Shown here piece after piece: positions 779-42,024 of a stretch of DNA of 64,000 bases. The position numbers and the translations under genes were made by a program. Origin of the DNA: Yinghuangia soli. GTDB taxonomy: Bacteria > Actinomycetota > Actinomycetes > Streptomycetales > Streptomycetaceae. Position 1 is the stretch's first letter, and each line of letters begins with the position of its first letter. The notes under the pieces are model-generated. The model saw only the letters and a list, made by a program, of their open reading frames with translations. It was not told where the DNA came from and searched no databases. The stretch is taken from positions 1 through 64,000 of the forward strand of contig NZ_JAKFHA010000022.1 in assembly GCF_021502675.1 (NCBI RefSeq), read 5' to 3'.

Positions 779-2167
779 TCAGTCGTGCACATGCAACGGC
801 TTGCCGGCGAGCGCCAGGTGGGCCTCGCCGATCGCCTCGGACTGGGACGGGTGGGGGTGGATCAACTGGGCCACCTCGGAGGGCAGCGCCTCCCAGTTGT
901 AGATCAGCTGGGCCTCGGCGACGAGTTCGCCCATACGGGCGCCGACCATGTGGATGCCCACGACCGGGCCGTCCTTGACCGAGACGACCTTGACGGAGCC
1001 CGCGGTCTTGAGGATCTGGCTCTTGCCGTTGCCGCCGAGGTTGTAGTCGATCACCGCGATCTTGTCGGCGCCGTAGCGCTCGACCGCCTGCGCCTGGGTG
1101 ATGCCGACGGACGCGACCTCGGGGTCGCAGTAGGTGACGCGGGGGACGCCCGCGTAGTCGATCGGCGCGGCGGGCAGGCCGGCGATGTGCTCGGCGACGA
1201 GGATGCCCTCGCCGAAGCCCACATGGGCCAGCTGCAGCGTCGGGATCAGGTCGCCGACCGCGTAGACGTTCGGCACGTTGGTGCGGCAGTACTCGTCGGC
1301 GAGGACGTAGCCGCGGTCCATCGCGACCCCGGCCTCCTCGTACCCGAGGCCGGCCGAGACCGGGCCGCGGCCGACCGCGACGAGCATGAGCTCGGCCTCG
1401 ATCTGCTTGCCGTTCTCCAGCGAGACCCGGATGCCGTTGTCGGTGTACTCCACGCCGCTGAAGCGCGAGCCGAGTTCGAACTTGATGCCGCGCTTGCGGA
1501 ACGCGCGCTCGAGCAGCTTGCTGCTCGCCTCGTCCTCGACCGGCACCAGGTGCGGCAGGGCCTCGACGATGGTCACGTCGACGCCGAAGGACTTCCAGGC
1601 GCTCGCGAACTCGACGCCGATGACGCCGCCGCCCAGGATCACCGCGGACGCCGGGACCCGGTCCAGGACGAGCGCGTGGTCGCTGTTGATGACGCGGTTG
1701 CCGTCGATCTCCAGGCCGGGCAGCGACTTCGGCACCGAGCCGGTCGCCAGCACGATGTTGCGGCCCTCGTAGCGCACCCCGTCGACCTCGACGGCGTTCG
1801 GCGCGACCAGGCGGCCGGCGCCCTCCACCACGGTGATCTTGCGGCTCGCGATCAGTCCGCTCAGGCCCTTGTAGAGCCGGGAGATGACCCCGTCCTTGTA
1901 CTTGTGCACGGCCGCGATATCGATGCCCTCAAACGTCGACTTGACGCCGAACTGCTCGCTCTCGCGGGTCTGGTCCGCCACCTCGCCGGCATGCAGGAGC
2001 GCCTTGGTCGGAATGCAGCCCTGGTGGAGGCAGGTGCCGCCGAGCTTGCCCTTCTCGATGAGCGCGACTTGCATCCCCAGTTCAGCGGCTCGGAGCGCGC
2101 AGGCGTAGCCGCCGCTCCCGCCTCCGAGGATGACTACATCGAAAACGGCTCCGGCGTCGTTCGCCAC
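779..2167 (-). CDS. lpdA: dihydrolipoamide dehydrogenase (E3)
   Basis: FAD enzyme (462 aa) that reoxidises dihydrolipoyl groups of E2 with NAD+. The N-terminus has the Rossmann motif GGGSGG (residues 15-20) and the redox disulfide motif GGTCLHQGCIPTK (C46, C51). A second glycine-rich dinucleotide motif, VILGGGVIGVEFAS, sits in the middle, and the C-terminal HPHPSQSEA carries the His-Glu pair used as base across the dimer. Length is normal for the family. It is followed by sucB on the same strand, so E3 and E2 are probably co-expressed. Confidence 0.97.
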   Translation of the reverse strand: MANDAGAVFDVVILGGGSGGYACALRAAELGMQVALIEKGKLGGTCLHQGCIPTKALLHAGEVADQTRESEQFGVKSTFEGIDIAAVHKYKDGVISRLYKGLSGLIASRKITVVEGAGRLVAPNAVEVDGVRYEGRNIVLATGSVPKSLPGLEIDGNRVINSDHALVLDRVPASAVILGGGVIGVEFASAWKSFGVDVTIVEALPHLVPVEDEASSKLLERAFRKRGIKFELGSRFSGVEYTDNGIRVSLENGKQIEAELMLVAVGRGPVSAGLGYEEAGVAMDRGYVLADEYCRTNVPNVYAVGDLIPTLQLAHVGFGEGILVAEHIAGLPAAPIDYAGVPRVTYCDPEVASVGITQAQAVERYGADKIAVIDYNLGGNGKSQILKTAGSVKVVSVKDGPVVGIHMVGARMGELVAEAQLIYNWEALPSEVAQLIHPHPSQSEAIGEAHLALAGKPLHVHD

Positions 2168-2422
2168 GTCACGTCCTCCTGCTGGATTGCGATGTGCTCA
2201 CCCGGGCTATGACCCCGGGTAGCACCCCCTTCTTGTGGAAGGCTCTAAGTGCCGGTACAACATCCTCCCACTTGTTGTCGGGGGCCGGGCACCTCGGGTC
2301 TGTGCGGCACGTTCCCAGGGTGTGTTGCCTGGGCCACAACTGCGGCGGCAAGCTGTCCGCCACGGCACGCCGACTGCTCCTCGGGCGGCCGACCGAACGA
2401 TCGGCCGAAGAAGGGATCGGAC

Positions 2423-2743
2423 GTGGGACTGTTCCGACGCGGTTCGCGGGCCGGACGCGGGCGCGTCGAGCGCGACGCAGCGGCCGCAGCCGTCGAGCAC
2501 CTGAAGGAATTCGCCCGCAGCCGGCGCGGTGTCGAGGCCTATCTGGAGCCGACCACGCAGGTGAGCGGCACGACGATGGTGCTGGTGGCGGACACCGGCG
2601 AGTGGACGCGCCGCCGGGTCGCCGACCCGGGCGCCGGGAAGGCGCTGGCCCGCAAACTGGGCGTGCCGCTCTACGAGGCAGGCATCGTGGGCTACCCGCA
2701 GCGCATGCGCGAGTGGACCCAGAAGAACAAGAGCGGCAGCTGA
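2423..2743 (+). CDS. conserved small actinobacterial protein, function unknown
   Basis: A 106-residue soluble protein starting GLFRRGSRAG. The GTG at 2423 is chosen because AAGGGA ends six bases upstream; the open frame reaches further back without a good ribosome site. It is rich in Arg, has no signal peptide or membrane segment, and ends in a basic QKNKSGS tail. The central VEAYLEPTTQVSGTTMVLVADTGEWTRR and the DPGAGKALARKLGVPLYEAGIVGYPQRM region look like a folded domain. It is divergent from lpdA and convergent with pepA. I recall similar small genes beside lpd in Streptomyces but no known role, so none is assigned. Confidence 0.8.
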   Translation: MGLFRRGSRAGRGRVERDAAAAAVEHLKEFARSRRGVEAYLEPTTQVSGTTMVLVADTGEWTRRRVADPGAGKALARKLGVPLYEAGIVGYPQRMREWTQKNKSGS

Positions 2744-2763
2744 TCACGCTTCGCGGCAACAAA

Positions 2764-2797
2764 ACGTCCGGGACGCGGATTCCCGCGCCCCGGACGT
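2764..2797. terminator. bidirectional hairpin between convergent genes
   Basis: ACGTCCGGG and CCCGGACGT form perfect 9-bp arms around a G/C-rich loop. It lies between the stop of the small + strand gene and the stop of pepA on the - strand, so it can end both transcripts. Confidence 0.7.
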
Positions 2798-2825
2798 CTG
2801 CGTCGCCGGACCTTTTCCGGACGTT

Positions 2826-2857
2826 CCCGGGCCCTGCCCGGGCCCTGCCCGGGCCTG
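2826..2857. repeat. 11-bp tandem repeat, about three copies
   Basis: CCCGGGCCCTG is repeated at 2826, 2837 and 2848 (the last copy lacks one C). It sits just downstream of pepA, after the hairpin. No function is evident. Confidence 0.75.
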
Positions 2858-2867
2858 AGCCGGACGG

Positions 2868-4382
<1,515 letters not shown>

Positions 4383-18736: not shown

Positions 18737-20224
18737 TCAGGAGGTGCGGCGGACCAGGTAGGCGACCCCGCCCTCCGGGGACGGGCGTTCACCCGCGTAT
18801 GCGTGGCCGGTCATCTCGCACCAGGCCGGCACGTCGAGCCGGGCCGCCTCGTCGTCGGAGAGCACCGCGACCAGCGCGCCGGGCGGCACCTCTCCGATGT
18901 GCTTGGCGAGTTCGATCACCGGGATCGGGCAGCGGCGGCCCAGGGTGTCCAGGACGAGTGCGGGGGAGCCGGGTTCGCCGGAGCCCTGCTCGCCGGTGCC
19001 CGGCTCAGCGGATTCCGGCATGGGGGAGTCTGCGATGGCGGAGTCCGCGATGGCGGAGTCCGCCGCAGTGCCGGCCGCGGATGGCAGCACGCCGGGCGTC
19101 ACCCCGGTGACCGCCCGCAGGTCCGCCACGATCCCGGGCAGCACCGCGAGGAACCGGTCCACCTCCGCGGCCGGCGTCCCGTGCGGCAGCGACACCCGCA
19201 CGTTGCCCTGCGACAACACCCCCATCGCCGCCAGCACATGACTGGGCGTCAGGGTCGAGGACGTGCACGACGAGCCGGACGAGACCGCGAACCCGGCCCG
19301 GTCCAGCGCGGTCAGCAGCGCCTCGCCGTCCACGTACAGGCAGGAGAACGTCACCAGGTGGGGGAGGCGCGCGACCGGGTCGCCGACCACTTCGACGTCC
19401 GGCACGGTCTGCGGCACCCGGGTGCGGATCTTGTCGACCAGTCCGGCCAGCCTGCGGTTCTCGTCGTCGCCGCCGGTGGCCACCGCGCCGAGTGCGACCG
19501 CGGCCGCGACGATCGCGGGCACGTTGACGAAGCCCGGCACGCGGCGCGCCTCGCGTTCGTCGTAAGGCAGCGGCGAGGCATATCGTGTGCCCTTTTTCAC
19601 GACGAGGACCCCGACGCCCGCGGGACCGCCCCATTTATGTGCGCTGGCGGCGAGCACCGACCAGCCGTCCGGAACGGCGACACGCCCGACCGATTGTGCG
19701 GCGTCGACAATCAGCGGAATACCCCGGGCAGCACACAAATCGGCGGCTTCGGCGACCGGCTGAAGTGTGCCGACTTCGTGGTTCGCGCTCTGCAGCGCGA
19801 CTGCCGCGGTGTCGGCCCGTAGATCATTTTCCAGTGCCGCGAGGTCGACGCGCCCCGTACGGTCCACCACCGTCCGGGTGATTTCCCCGCCGCGCGCCTC
19901 GTGCTGCTCCGCGGCGTGCAGGACCGAGGAGTGTTCCACCGCGCTCACCACCGCATGCGCGCCGACCCGGCGCCGGCCGGCGAGCGTGCCGAGGAGCGCC
20001 AACTGGACTGCCTGGGTGCCCGATCCGGTGAACGCCACCTCGTCCGGGCGCGCGCCGAGCACCGTCGCGACCGTCTCACGTGCGGCATCGAGCAGCAGGC
20101 GGGCGCGGCGGCCGTCGTGGTACTGCCGGGCGGGATCCGCCCAGCCCTCCTCCAGCGCACTGAGGAACGCCGCCCGTGCGGCGGGGTGGAGGGGTTCCGC
20201 GGAGGCCGCGTCGAAGTACGCCAT
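18737..20224 (-). CDS. cysteine desulfurase fused to a TusA-type sulfur carrier
   Basis: Two-domain protein (495 aa). Residues 1-375 are a class V PLP cysteine desulfurase: PLP lysine K197 in SAHKWGG and catalytic Cys C320 in SSGSSCTSS. Residues about 423-495 are a TusA/SirA domain with the CPIP sulfur-accepting cysteine (C432). The two are joined by a Ser/Ala/Glu linker built on a short DNA repeat. Fusion suggests direct persulfide transfer from desulfurase to carrier, for tRNA thiolation or cofactors; the final acceptor is not shown. TACCGT six bases before ATG fits a leaderless transcript. Confidence 0.93.
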   Translation of the reverse strand: MAYFDAASAEPLHPAARAAFLSALEEGWADPARQYHDGRRARLLLDAARETVATVLGARPDEVAFTGSGTQAVQLALLGTLAGRRRVGAHAVVSAVEHSSVLHAAEQHEARGGEITRTVVDRTGRVDLAALENDLRADTAAVALQSANHEVGTLQPVAEAADLCAARGIPLIVDAAQSVGRVAVPDGWSVLAASAHKWGGPAGVGVLVVKKGTRYASPLPYDEREARRVPGFVNVPAIVAAAVALGAVATGGDDENRRLAGLVDKIRTRVPQTVPDVEVVGDPVARLPHLVTFSCLYVDGEALLTALDRAGFAVSSGSSCTSSTLTPSHVLAAMGVLSQGNVRVSLPHGTPAAEVDRFLAVLPGIVADLRAVTGVTPGVLPSAAGTAADSAIADSAIADSPMPESAEPGTGEQGSGEPGSPALVLDTLGRRCPIPVIELAKHIGEVPPGALVAVLSDDEAARLDVPAWCEMTGHAYAGERPSPEGGVAYLVRRTS

Positions 20225-33706: not shown

Positions 33707-33813
33707 CCGGTCGGCCTGCGCACGCCTCTCACGCCTCGGACATGCCGGAACCGGCTTGCCGCGCGCGGCTACGCTGAGTCCGACCTGACGGACTCGACAT
33801 GCGGGAGCGGACC

Positions 33814-34893
33814 ATGGGCGCCTCGGCCTCGGCAGCGGTGAGCAGCACCACCTCCGGGCAGGGCCGTTCCTGGCCGGACGTCCTGACCTCCTTGATGCGC
33901 GGCGAGGACCTCGACGCGGGCACCACCGCCTGGGCGATGGACCAGATCATGAGCGGCGATGCGACGCCGGTGCAGATCGCCGCGTTCGTCGTCGCGCTGC
34001 GCGCCAAGGGCGAGACCGTCGACGAGGTCGCCGGCCTGGTCGAGGCCATGTACGCGCATGCCGTGACCATCGAGGTGCCGGGTCCGATCGTGGACATCGT
34101 CGGCACCGGCGGCGACCGCGCGCGGACCGTGAACATCTCCACGATGTCCGCGATCGTCGTCGCGGGCACCGGGGCCACCGTGGTCAAGCACGGCAACCGC
34201 GCGGCGTCGTCCGCGAGCGGGGCCGCCGACGTGCTGGAGGCGCTCGGCGTCTCGCTCGACCTGACCCCCGATCAGGTGGCCCGCACCGCGGTGGAGGCCG
34301 GCGTCACGCTGTGCTTCGCGCAGCGCTTCCACCCCGCGCTGCGGCACGCCGCGCAGGCCCGCCGCGAACTCGGCGTGCAGACCACGTTCAACATCCTCGG
34401 CCCGCTGACCAACCCGGCCCGGGCCCCGCACACCGCGATCGGCGTCGCGGATGCCCGGATGGCCCCGCTGATGGCCGGCGTGCTGGCCCGGCGCGGCACC
34501 TCGGCGCTGGTGTTCCGCGGCGACGACGGGCTCGACGAGCTCACCATCACCACCACCTCGAAGGTGTGGGTCGTGCGCGACGGCGAGGTCCGCGAAGACC
34601 AGGTCGACCCCCGGGACTTCGGGATCGCGCTGGTGCCCATCGAGGCGCTGCGCGGCGGGGACGCGGCGTACAACGCGGACGTGGCCCGGAAGCTGCTGGC
34701 CGGCGAGCGCGGGCCGGTGCGCGACGCGGTGCTGCTCAACTCGGCGGCCGCCCTCGTGGCGCTCGGCCCCGGCGAGGGCCCGCTGAGCGAACAGCTGGCC
34801 GCGGGCATCGAGCGGGCCGCGGACGCGGTCGACTCGGGCAAGGCGCAGGCCGCGCTGGAGCGCTGGGTCGAGACGACGCGCGCCTTCGGCTGA
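33814..34893 (+). CDS. trpD: anthranilate phosphoribosyltransferase
   Basis: Transfers phosphoribose to anthranilate in tryptophan synthesis (359 aa). The PRPP loop [15 protein letters not shown] is at about 96-110, KHGNRAASS follows at about 127-135, and [11 protein letters not shown] is the third motif. ATG 33814 follows GGGAG at six bases; the ATG at 33799 is unlikely. TACGCT at 33770 may be its -10. Other trp genes are absent here, as usual for scattered actinobacterial trp genes. A strong terminator follows. Confidence 0.95.
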
Positions 34894-34951
34894 CGCCGAC
34901 AGGCCCGGCACGTGCGGCGTCCGGCCGGGCGCCGCACGGGATTTGGCGGTG

Positions 34952-35000
34952 GCCCGCGGCCGGGCGCCGGGCGGAAGCCGGTGCCCGGCCGCGGGCTTTT
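34952..35000 (+). terminator. rho-independent terminator of trpD
   Basis: GCCCGCGGCCGGGCGCCGG pairs (one G-T) with CCGGTGCCCGGCCGCGGGC around a 7-base loop, followed by TTTT: a classical intrinsic terminator. Confidence 0.9.
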
Positions 35001-35038
35001 GCCTGCCGTCTCACATGCTGATACGTCGAATATCCATG

Positions 35039-35068
35039 TTGAGAGACCGTCGATCGTGCGGTAATAAT
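35039..35068 (+). promoter_or_regulatory. sigma-70 type promoter of the riboswitch transcript
   Basis: TTGAGA (35039-35044), 18 bases, AATAAT (35063-35068). Both boxes match five of six consensus bases. Transcription would begin near 35075, exactly before the riboswitch. Confidence 0.75.
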
Positions 35069-35076
35069 TCCTTCCA

Positions 35077-35195
35077 GGTCACGAGTGACAGCGTTTTGGC
35101 CCCGGCTTGCTGTCCGGCAACCCTCCTCCGCGGTGGGGTGCCCCGGGTGATGACCAGGCCGGACGCCATGAGGCGCTCCGGCAAGCGCGGACCTC
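35077..35195 (+). ncRNA. SAM-IV riboswitch
   Basis: S-adenosylmethionine-binding leader. P1 arms GGTCA (35077) and TGACC (35151) close the junction; CCCCGGCTTGCTGTCCGG and the SAM-core GGCAACCCTCC with GGTGGGGTGCC are as I remember for SAM-IV. A pseudoknot/hairpin region follows (GGCGCTCCGGC), then a CCTCC stretch that could mask the downstream GGAGAG ribosome site. Such RNAs repress sulfur genes when SAM is abundant. Confidence 0.88.
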
Positions 35196-35240
35196 CTTCC
35201 GGTCATCGGTACCCGGGGTCCCTGTCCCTGGAGAGCTGCC

Positions 35241-36671
35241 ATGACCGCTGTCGCCTTCGCCCCCGCTGCCGCCGAGACCGCCCCGACCGCGGCTGCGGCC
35301 CCCGCCGGAACCTCCCGCCCGGACGCCCCGCTCGCCGTCGTCGGCCGCGACGTCCGCGTCCCGCTGGTCACCGGCGGCGAGGTCGAATACGCCGCCCTCG
35401 ACTACGCGGCCAGCGCGCCCTGTCTGCAGCGGGTCTGGGACGACGTCTCCGCCTACCTGCCGTACTACGGCAGCGTGCACCGCGGCGCCGGCTACCTCTC
35501 GCAGCTGTCCACCGACCTGTACGAGTCGAGCCGCAAGACCGTCGCGTCCTACCTCGGCGCCCGTGCCGACGACGTCGTCCTGTTCACCCGCGGCACCACC
35601 GACTCGCTCAATCTGCTGGCCGCCGCACTCCCGGCCGGCACCCGGGTGTTCGTCTTCGAGACCGAGCACCACGCCGCACTGCTGCCCTGGCGCCGCACCG
35701 CCGAGGTGACCCACCTGCCCGCCCCCGGCAGCCACGCCGAGGCCGTCGCCACCCTGGACGCCGCGCTCGCCGCCGCACCCGCCGACGGCCCGCGCCTGGT
35801 GTGCGTGACCGGCGCGTCCAACGTCACCGGCGAGCTGTTCCCGGTCCGCGAACTGGCCGCGACCGCGCACCGGCACGGCGCCCGCATCGTGCTGGACGCC
35901 GCGCAGCTCGCCCCGCACCACCCGGTCTCGCTCACCGGTCTGGACGTCGACTGGGTGGCCTTCTCCGGCCACAAGCTCTACGCGCCGTTCGGGGCCGGCG
36001 TGCTGGCCGGCCGCGGCGACTGGCTCGCGGACGCCGAGCCGTACCTCGCGGGCGGCGGCGCCAGCAAGTCGGTCACCGCCGACGCGGTGGAGTGGAACAC
36101 CGGTTCGGCCCGGCACGAGGCCGGCTCGCCCAACGTCATCGGGGCGTACGCGATCGCCTCGGCCTGCCGCGCGCTCACCGAGGCCGGACTCGACGCCCTC
36201 GCGGCGCGCGAGGACGCCCTCCTGGCCCGGCTGCGCGCCGGCCTCGCGGACATCCCCGAGGTGCGCACGCTGGACCTGTTCGGCCCCGGCGCGGCGCGCG
36301 TGTCGGTGGTGTCGTTCGTGGTGGAGGGCTGGAACAGCTCGCGGTTCGCCGCCGCGCTGTCCGCGGAGTACGGCATCGGGGTCCGCGACGGGCTGTTCTG
36401 CGCGCACCCGCTGGTGCGCCGGCTGCTCGGCGGCCGGGACGACGCGCCGACCGAGTGCGGCGCGCCGGACGCCCCGGCCGGCGAGCAGAACCTCAACGCG
36501 ATCCGGGTCAGCTTCGGTGCGGGCACGCCCGAGGAGCACCTCGACCGGTTCGTCGGCGCGGTGCGCGAACTGGTGCGCCGCGGTGCGAAGTGGACGTACC
36601 GCACCGACGGCGGCCGCTGCGTGCCCGAGTCGGACCCCCGCGGACCCGCCTCGGTCGCGGGCCTGATCTGA
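35241..36671 (+). CDS. class V PLP-dependent aminotransferase (cysteine desulfurase-like), SAM-riboswitch controlled
   Basis: A 476-residue fold-type I enzyme. PLP lysine K245 is in FSGHKLYAPFGAG, with the PLP-binding Asp in VLDAAQLAPHH. YLPYYGSVHRGAGYLSQLST and ASNVTGELFPV match the desulfurase/isopenicillin-epimerase-like group. No flexible-loop catalytic Cys is obvious (a Cys in GLFCAHPL is in place of it), so the reaction is uncertain. The SAM-IV riboswitch ties it to methionine/sulfur supply; GGAGAG lies seven bases before ATG. Confidence 0.85.
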   Translation: MTAVAFAPAAAETAPTAAAAPAGTSRPDAPLAVVGRDVRVPLVTGGEVEYAALDYAASAPCLQRVWDDVSAYLPYYGSVHRGAGYLSQLSTDLYESSRKTVASYLGARADDVVLFTRGTTDSLNLLAAALPAGTRVFVFETEHHAALLPWRRTAEVTHLPAPGSHAEAVATLDAALAAAPADGPRLVCVTGASNVTGELFPVRELAATAHRHGARIVLDAAQLAPHHPVSLTGLDVDWVAFSGHKLYAPFGAGVLAGRGDWLADAEPYLAGGGASKSVTADAVEWNTGSARHEAGSPNVIGAYAIASACRALTEAGLDALAAREDALLARLRAGLADIPEVRTLDLFGPGAARVSVVSFVVEGWNSSRFAAALSAEYGIGVRDGLFCAHPLVRRLLGGRDDAPTECGAPDAPAGEQNLNAIRVSFGAGTPEEHLDRFVGAVRELVRRGAKWTYRTDGGRCVPESDPRGPASVAGLI

Positions 36672-36679
36672 CGGGTGCT

Positions 36680-36970
36680 CTAGAAGCCGTCGTCCAGGCC
36701 GATCGCGAACGCGGCCTCGAGGTCGTGCTTGGAGTATGTGCGGAACGCGATGTGGGTCGCGGTGTGCAGCACGCCGGGGACCTTGTTCAGCTGCCCCGGG
36801 ATCGCGTCGGCGAGCTGGTCGTGCTCGCGGACCCGGACCATCGCCACGAGGTCGAACTCGCCACCGGTGACCGAATAGACCTCGGTGACCGCGTCGATGG
36901 CCGTGATCGCTTCGGCGATCTCGGGGATGCGGTCGACGGCGGCCTTGACGTGCACGATCGCGGTGATCAC
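36680..36970 (-). CDS. stand-alone Lrp/AsnC ligand-binding (RAM) domain protein
   Basis: A 96-residue protein starting ITAIVHVKAAVDRI with the RAM fold: VTEVYSVTGGEFDLVAMVRV is the effector-binding core. The usual helix-turn-helix is missing, so it cannot bind DNA alone but may sense amino acids or join other Lrp proteins. GTG 36970 follows AGAGG at eight bases. It is third in a - strand set after the exonuclease and rhomboid genes. Confidence 0.85.
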   Translation of the reverse strand: MITAIVHVKAAVDRIPEIAEAITAIDAVTEVYSVTGGEFDLVAMVRVREHDQLADAIPGQLNKVPGVLHTATHIAFRTYSKHDLEAAFAIGLDDGF

Positions 36971-37017
36971 AGCGGAGGCCTCTCCTCGGCGGGGCGGTGC
37001 GGTCCGGGATCCAGAGC

Positions 37018-37875
37018 CTATCCCGGCGGGGTCGGCGGGATGACCGGGGCGGGCGGCAGCGTGTGCGGGTACGGCTGCGGATCCGCGGGGCCGGCCGGCC
37101 CCGCCGGGCCGCGGCCGCTCTTGCGGCGGCCGTACAGCGCCCAGGTGTAGGCGAACCCGGAGGCGAAGCCGACCAAGTGCGCGGAGTAGGCCACATTGGC
37201 GTCGCCGCTCACCCCGAGGCCCTGGAAGTACAGCCACTGCAGCACGAAGTAGAAGCCCAGGACCGCCCAGGCCGGGAAGCGCAGCGGGAGGAAGAGGAGC
37301 AGCGGGACCAGGCTGGTGACCCGGGCCTTGGGATAGAGGTAGAGATACGCGCCGAGCACCGCGGCGATCGCCCCGGACGCGCCGACCAGCGGCTGCACCG
37401 AACCCGGATTGAGCAAGGCGAACCCGTACGTGGCCAGATAACCGGCGGCCAGATAGAAGAGCGCGAAATGCCCGCGGCCCATGCGGTCCTCGACGTTGTT
37501 GCCGAAGACGTACAGATAGAGCATGTTCCCGATCAGATGCACCCAGCCGCCGTGCATGAACATCGCGAACAGCACGGAAAGCGCCGGGATCTTGTCGGGA
37601 TCGGGCACGACCTTGCAGCGCACCGGGCCGCGGTCGGTGGCCACCACCTCGGGCGGGTCGACGCGCGGGCCGCCGCCGACCAGTTCGCGCGGGATCGCGC
37701 CGTACTCGTAGTAGTAGCCGTTCTCCGCGCAGACCCGGGATTCCGGGCTGTCGTACCGGCTGCCGAAGCCGGACAGCGGACTGAGCAGGAAGATCACCAC
37801 GTTGAGTGCGATCAACGCATAAGTGACCACCGGGGTGCGGCGGACCGGGTTGGCGTCGTGCACGGGGATCAACAT
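37018..37875 (-). CDS. rhomboid-family intramembrane serine protease
   Basis: A 285-residue polytopic protease. The catalytic Ser is S167 in VGASGAI and the His H233 in YSAHLVGFASG; HGGWVHLIGNMLYLYVFG is the typical loop-1/helix-2 block. The loop after helix 1 is about 70 residues with two cysteines. The C-terminus is a Pro-rich tail. Substrates are unknown. It follows the exonuclease gene by 50 bp. Confidence 0.93.
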   Translation of the reverse strand: MLIPVHDANPVRRTPVVTYALIALNVVIFLLSPLSGFGSRYDSPESRVCAENGYYYEYGAIPRELVGGGPRVDPPEVVATDRGPVRCKVVPDPDKIPALSVLFAMFMHGGWVHLIGNMLYLYVFGNNVEDRMGRGHFALFYLAAGYLATYGFALLNPGSVQPLVGASGAIAAVLGAYLYLYPKARVTSLVPLLLFLPLRFPAWAVLGFYFVLQWLYFQGLGVSGDANVAYSAHLVGFASGFAYTWALYGRRKSGRGPAGPAGPADPQPYPHTLPPAPVIPPTPPG

Positions 37876-41855: not shown

Positions 41856-42005
41856 GCGGGGGCTCCCGCCGAATCCGGCGCGGCCCACGGGGGGCCGGTC
41901 CGGAACCGGGGACCCGGTTCCCTGGGGTGAATCGGTGCGGCATGCCGCACTGTAGGGCTTGCTTCCAGCCCGAACCCGTCAGCTCACCCGGTAGGCGGCC
42001 GGAGG
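41856..42005 (+). ncRNA. ydaO-type riboswitch (cyclic di-AMP)
   Basis: Leader of the NlpC/P60 gene. CGCCGAATCCGGCG at 41868, the GGAACCGGGGACCC stretch, CCTGGGGTGAATCGGTGC and the 3' block TAGGGCTTGCTTCCAGCCC, CGAACCCGTCAGCT, ACCCGGTAGGCGGC are the conserved ydaO elements as I know them. In actinobacteria this RNA commonly precedes cell-wall hydrolases and turns expression down at high c-di-AMP. The ribosome site (CGGAG) lies directly after it. Confidence 0.9.
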
Positions 42006-42024
42006 AAGAACGGAGTTCGCCTGC

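Follow-up and report, generated by a model that had tools for sequence, protein, structure and literature searches.

The window, i.e., the whole 64,000-nucleotide stretch of DNA that was analysed, contained a SAM-IV riboswitch placed directly before a gene for a class V PLP enzyme. On the forward strand, trpD (33799-34893) was followed by a terminator-like site (34983-34996) that ends the trpD transcript ahead of the SAM-IV promoter. Next came the promoter (35039-35068), the aptamer (35077-35193), and the enzyme gene (35241-36671; 476 amino acids). An Lrp-type regulator was encoded beyond it on the reverse strand (36680-37237), and no suf operon partners adjoined the gene. Elsewhere in the window, a c-di-AMP (ydaO/yuaA) riboswitch (RF00379) was found on the forward strand at 41857-42012 (70 bits vs. 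38).

A consensus scan of 34900-35400 revealed a single promoter-like site, comprised of the -35-like hexamer TTGAGA (35039-35044, forward strand) and the -10-like hexamer AATAAT (35063-35068, forward strand; TAATAAT when extended by one base) with a spacer of 18; shuffled sequences averaged 0.0 sites. These letters and this spacer had been named in an earlier reading of the DNA made from the sequence alone. Both other members of the genus carried TAATAAT at the same distance, and their -35 hexamers were TTGAGA in one and TTGGCT in the other. Across the 157 distinct loci described below, only an A at position -13 from the aptamer (112 loci) and a T at position -9 (114 loci) held, and these two positions fit the TAnnnT -10 element given for Streptomyces lividans in the available text of PMC8079986. 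The transcription start would lie at approximately 35075-35077.

The covariance model RF00634 matched 35077-35193 on the forward strand at 110.9 bits against a gathering threshold of 38 (E 1.3e-19). The match was full length (model positions 1-116), with zero non-standard pairs marked, and was the only SAM-IV match in the whole 9.7 Mb genome. The SAM-IV-like fold described in the sequence-only reading was thereby confirmed. Both strands of PK-2 were present: UCCGCG in the P3 loop (35127-35132, forward strand) and CGCGGA at the 3' end of the aptamer (35186-35191, forward strand) were complementary at six of six positions. In a motif search, 139 of 157 loci had fully pairable PK-2 strands (6/6); the remaining 18 were in part loose motif calls. 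The window aptamer is a well-formed predicted SAM-IV riboswitch.

The riboswitch and the gene occurred together repeatedly. Among 150 genomes of the family, SAM-IV was found in 147 and the gene in 147; the same three genomes lacked both. In 246 genomes drawn from across the class, 69 homologues from outside the family were checked, and at least 52 of them were preceded by a SAM-IV on their own strand at a distance of no more than 700 nt. A fuzzy motif placed a SAM-IV core upstream of the gene in 80 of 80 named loci, a non-random set made up of the best 80 of 577 matches; the further loci were likewise top matches of additional searches. Of the 80 named loci, some of them short, 74 encoded a TrpD homologue in the same direction as the gene and 63 encoded an Lrp homologue on the opposite strand. 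In total, 182 loci with the gene reduced to 157 distinct loci, 156 of which formed the layout set. A second SAM-IV (84.5 bits) was seen at 1501-1612 of one locus from the same genus (L004, genome G001), and the next long ORF downstream of it (1789-3102) had no NCBIfam match at 0.001. Closely spaced SAM-IV pairs on opposite strands were observed on two contigs without this gene (G041:C169, 14065-14498; G140:C344, 26626-28221).

Two layouts were distinguished. In the direct layout, represented by the window, aptamer and gene were joined by a short platform. In the leader layout, a six-codon leader ORF (MSKRMR, stop TAG) lay between SAM-IV and gene; this ORF was found in 119 of 157 distinct loci (most of L066-L144) and was absent from the window and from both genus relatives.

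The gene opened at the ATG at 35241 and encoded a SufS-like class V PLP enzyme (Aminotran_5, 262.9 bits), in agreement with the class assigned earlier. Its best NCBIfam model was SufS TIGR01979, which has a cut-off of 475.1 bits and matched at 262.9; the enzyme is therefore SufS-like, yet not filed as SufS. It fell under the cut-off of every NCBIfam model matched, including that of the family 2A encapsulin cargo desulfurase (NF041166, 236.3 bits vs. 800). A canonical SufS (599.3 bits) was encoded on another contig of the genome. Among the matches listed, the closest named relative was from Embleya scabrispora (83%), and a plasmid search returned 555 records, every one below 60% identity. Within 17 kb, a second desulfurase was encoded on the reverse strand of the window (18737-20224), a NifS/IscS-type enzyme whose 495-aa ORF ends in a TusA sulfurtransferase domain (PF01206, 55.9 bits, residues 424-492).

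It had been stated earlier that the enzyme lacks an obvious desulfurase cysteine, which was incorrect. Cys387 (codon 36399-36401, forward strand), within RDGLFCAHP, aligned with the catalytic Cys of SufS and was invariant in 158 of 158 alignment rows (157 loci, the window's own among them, plus the window protein). Given this alignment and invariance, the absence of a cysteine was rejected as a ground for calling the enzyme something other than a desulfurase. Also invariant in all 158 rows were His80, Asp121, His143, His144, Asn194, Asp219, Gln222, Lys245, Arg382, and His389; Arg422 was found in 150 rows, with gaps in the other eight. The four residues of the type II NifS-like test, i.e., the PLP lysine (Lys245), the stacking histidine (His143), the catalytic cysteine (Cys387), and the substrate arginine (Arg382), were all present; these roles are those assigned in published SufS work. 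Asp121 stands in the place of SufS Glu96.

The best PDB sequence matches were SufS-type desulfurases, and in the PDB alignments RDGLFCAHP fell on the RxGHHCAxP of SufS-type enzymes. An AlphaFold model of the enzyme had a mean pLDDT of 85.0. The 50 best fold matches listed for it were SufS-type desulfurases (TM to target 0.82-0.87, identity 27-34%), and the best among them were a mycobacterial encapsulin-cargo desulfurase and SufS structures. Fold and catalytic residues were alike between the window enzyme and SufS or the family 2A encapsulin cargo desulfurase (PDB 8kg1, 9ddd, 6mrh), whereas in the window enzyme the segment following the catalytic Cys was longer and was modelled poorly.

A different reaction on the same fold, with the enzyme acting as another C-S or C-Se lyase or other PLP enzyme (e.g., selenocysteine lyase or cysteine sulfinate lyase), is somewhat unlikely. 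Scores under every curated cut-off, the motif RDGxFCAHP where SufS has RxGHHCAxP, and the title of selenocysteine lyase on some matched E. coli structures are consistent with such an enzyme; however, the catalytic residues checked, all but Glu96, were kept and invariant, and the nearest solved structures were desulfurases. For the window enzyme, the reaction of a cysteine desulfurase is the likeliest candidate. Its place in sulfur metabolism, earlier called open, is also less so than was claimed: in the available text on S. lividans, the gene behind SAM-IV (SLIV_26975) is already annotated as a cysteine desulfurase (PMC8079986).

In a sample of 48 genomes, SAM-IV preceded at least 12 of 32 metY matches and at least 4 of 29 metX matches, which suggests that the desulfurase gene belongs to a SAM-controlled methionine regulon. 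The gene did not track MetY or MetX: of the 27 genomes that carry the gene 15 had MetY over the cut-off, as did 14 of the 21 that lack it, leaving 19 of the 48 with no MetY over the cut-off. No genome of the 48 had MetX over the curated cut-off of 500; MetX was counted by hand from matches of at least 346 bits, all under that value. The gene as a stand-in for MetX or MetY was rejected, as no exclusion pattern appeared in the 48-genome sample. MetA and HcyBio were each found in 0 of 20 genomes. Two genomes of the family (G009 and G112) had no SAM-IV, no desulfurase homologue at 1e-80, and no MetY over the cut-off; their MetX matches were short and weak only, and MetA and HcyBio were not found in them. 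A SAM-repressed desulfurase under the same class of switch as metY and metX would be a lead on actinobacterial sulfur supply to methionine.

The gene start of the window lay 47 nt past the Rfam aptamer end, and the hairpins of the intervening platform overlapped the Shine-Dalgarno sequence (GGAG, 35230-35233, 7 nt before the ATG) and the AUG. Two mutually exclusive pairings were recognised, all strands lying on the forward strand. In the first, termed the antisequestor, the 5' arm GGACCUC (35189-35195) pairs with the 3' arm GGGGUCC (35215-35221), and the GGA of the 5' arm is shared with PK-2. In the second, termed the sequestor, CCGGGG (35213-35218) pairs with CCCUGG (35226-35231), which runs into the Shine-Dalgarno sequence. 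The sequestor fold of the window had an energy of -23.3 kcal/mol and the antisequestor fold -17.6 kcal/mol. In the window the sequestor is extended by GGUCAU (35201-35206, forward strand), which complements both AUGACC at the start codon (35241-35246) and aptamer positions 35150-35155. The GGUCAU:AUGACC pairing over the start codon was part of the window's minimum-energy fold, and the motif was absent from the two genus relatives.

Covariation of the arms was measured by swapping them among loci, in permutation tests that ignore the relatedness of the loci; four Embleya-like loci were set aside, and in 22 loci a 3' arm could not be recognised. For the sequestor in 27 distinct direct loci, own arms paired at -12.82 kcal/mol against -11.42 kcal/mol for swapped arms, and none of 2000 permutations was as good; here the CCGGGG side covaried with the stretch running from before the Shine-Dalgarno sequence through it to the start. 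For the antisequestor in 27 direct loci the values were -13.03 and -12.3 kcal/mol (9 of 2000 permutations as good), and with a wider region in 30 direct loci 0 of 2000 permutations were as good. With the arms reversed as a control, no signal appeared (1645 and 1542 of 2000 permutations as good). Control close to the ribosome site, as anticipated by the sequence-only reading, is supported.

The same reading had also pointed to a CCTCC stretch that could mask the ribosome site. The stretch was present at 35192-35196, and most of it sits in the antisequestor 5' arm, but it failed as a Shine-Dalgarno mask in the direct layout: covariation was absent in 30 distinct loci (1391 of 2000 permutations as good), and in the window a forced CUCC:GGAG pairing reached -18.4 kcal/mol against -23.3 kcal/mol for the sequestor. 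In the leader layout the CCTCC-equivalent arm did covary with the Shine-Dalgarno sequence (0 of 2000; 77 loci). Sequestor covariation on the side of the 3' arm was not significant in that layout (326 of 2000; 89 loci).

When the window RNA was folded as it grows, at 35224-35228, the antisequestor had -14.5 kcal/mol with the GGA free and -6.1 kcal/mol with the GGA held. Among loci with an identified arm, holding the GGA cost 4 kcal/mol or more in 27 of 29 of the direct layout and in 101 of 101 of the leader layout, a cost that is partly built in by picking the arms for complementarity. The GGA shared by PK-2 and the antisequestor, together with this loss, points to an OFF switch by SAM. Against such a switch, exposure of the Shine-Dalgarno sequence in equilibrium folding was flat with and without the PK-2 strand (0.34 and 0.33 in direct loci; 0.23 and 0.23 in leader loci). 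It follows from the flat accessibility that the switch decision must be kinetic, i.e., co-transcriptional.

Taken with the regulon context, the direct-layout SAM-IV probably turns off translation in response to SAM, its target being a SufS-like enzyme of the methionine regulon that would mobilise sulfur from cysteine. The scores under the NCBIfam cut-offs, Asp121 in the place of Glu96, and the failure of the gene to track MetY or MetX count against this reading. The aptamer, the PK-2 complementarity, the covarying arms, and the catalytic residues are read from the sequence, and the steps of switching would be as follows. When SAM is scarce, GGACCUC (35189-35195) would pair with GGGGUCC (35215-35221) as the RNA emerges; the antisequestor thus formed would prevent the sequestor and leave GGAG and the AUG open. 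When SAM is bound, PK-2 would hold CGCGGA (35186-35191) and the antisequestor would lose three pairs. So weakened, it would allow CCGGGG:CCCUGG (35213-35218 with 35226-35231) to close over the Shine-Dalgarno sequence. The enzyme may draw sulfur from cysteine by way of a persulfide on Cys387, and this sulfur would serve to make methionine or SAM. This amounts to a testable, base-by-base proposal for the platform of a SAM-IV riboswitch, and the covarying platform itself, with an antisequestor sharing its GGA with PK-2 and a sequestor reaching into the Shine-Dalgarno sequence, appears to be new here.

Control of the same gene by the same switch mainly through premature transcription termination, either intrinsic or Rho-dependent after untranslated RNA, is unlikely. 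In S. clavuligerus, the available text reports a strong premature transcript, listed as a premature transcription unit, at the SAM-IV leader before the class V PLP gene CRV15_21540 (PMC8269248), and the Mbox of Mycobacterium tuberculosis is described as combining a translational platform with Rho (PMC12810186). Leader-layout loci also carried a hairpin at the leader stop codon, followed by a U-rich stretch in 45 of 101. Against this, the window gene starts 47 nt behind the Rfam aptamer end, the platform hairpins lie over the Shine-Dalgarno sequence and AUG, the conserved pairings of the direct layout are of the sequestor type, and a terminator scan of the leader between aptamer and gene, blind to Rho sites, found nothing. 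An anti-aptamer switch, in which the platform strand 35201-35218 would, without SAM, capture 35141-35155 of the aptamer (its core and P1 strand), is very unlikely: GGUCAUC and ACCCGGGG are nearly completely complementary to CCCCGGGUGAUGACC and the minimum-energy fold of 35075-35275 uses this pairing (z -2.07; 5 of 200 shuffles as stable), but CCGGGG is all that remains of the platform strand in the two genus relatives, and the fold ties up GGAG (35230-35233) with 35125-35129, so that the ribosome site is not opened.

For the leader ORF of the relatives, the first search demanded a start codon, a stop, and ATG as the fifth codon; a search for CGAATG that demanded neither start nor stop also returned 119 loci. 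The codon three before was GTG, ATG, or TTG in 118 of these 119 and codon 7 was TAG in 117; the exceptions were L082, with a second chance CGAATG, and L022, with a stop one codon earlier. Codon 4 was CGA in 119 of 119 with any CGN allowed, i.e., without synonymous variation. Codon 6 was CGA, CGC, or CGT in 114 of the 119 and the stop was TAG in 118. The exact pattern of the commonest form was found in 50 of 150 family genomes, once in each, and its reversed pattern in none; all 50 lay on the same strand as the desulfurase match, 26-238 nt before it.

By folding, a hairpin of at least four pairs within 4 nt of the leader stop was found in 93 of 101 distinct sequences, and it covaried (0 of 2000). 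Its stability against shuffles was weak (mean z -0.91; 45% below -1). A first regular expression for the hairpin had found only 3 of 119, being too strict. The gene's own start lay a median of 125 nt further on (range 44-260; 91 loci).

On a tree of 82 rows, which drew 45 of the 119 leader loci, the leader label required four changes, read as one gain and three losses, of which the well supported branches force only two changes. The gain was placed on the branch after a Kitasatospora-like clade (support 88). The direct layout of the window is probably older than the leader layout, because direct loci occur in other families. Four Embleya-like loci instead contained a different conserved mini-ORF, GTG ATG GCG TGA, with a similar Shine-Dalgarno sequence and well before the gene start; this mini-ORF was noted in L038-L041 and L065 (Embleya).

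It is quite possible, though tentative, that in most of the Streptomyces loci analysed SAM-IV gates a ribosome-dependent attenuator through the MSKRMR leader, probably gained once in the Streptomyces lineage and lost more than once, with the different mini-ORF as its match in Embleya. SAM-IV would then act on the MSKRMR peptide and not on the desulfurase's own ribosome site. A ribosome completing the peptide would cover the hairpin at the stop codon, and transcription would continue into the desulfurase; SAM would block the peptide, the hairpin would form, and transcription would stop. Across the loci compared, one aptamer drives two expression layouts, one direct and one through a conserved six-codon ORF.

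In kind, the window is ordinary. The available texts on S. lividans (SLIV_26975; PMC8079986) and S. clavuligerus (CRV15_21540; PMC8269248) also place SAM-IV upstream of a class V PLP enzyme, so that in both species this combination of switch and gene has been published before. The window shares with the RF00634 class the full-length match and both PK-2 strands. In the cryo-EM structure of SAM-IV, as given in the available text (PMC6890682), PK-2 is formed with the 3' end and SAM leaves the base pairing of the aptamer unchanged, the latter counting against the switch proposed here; that text contains zero occurrences of "expression platform," whereas a platform is proposed here. For the leader layout, no published description of a SAM-IV-linked MSKRMR ORF was found in the open-licence literature. 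The available texts of the S. lividans and S. clavuligerus papers mention no such leader ORF, and the eight leader peptides of the S. lividans paper (PMC8079986) do not include it, whereas many Streptomyces loci here have one and the window does not. The conserved six-codon ORF and its covarying hairpin appear to be new here, in relatives of the window. The nearest likeness is in M. tuberculosis, where the available texts describe riboswitches facing small ORFs, for B12 (PMC11260477) and Mbox (PMC12810186). There, as in the Streptomyces relatives, a riboswitch is followed by a small conserved ORF and then by the main gene; the Streptomyces leader differs in its ligand and aptamer, its six-codon peptide, and its hairpin at the stop.
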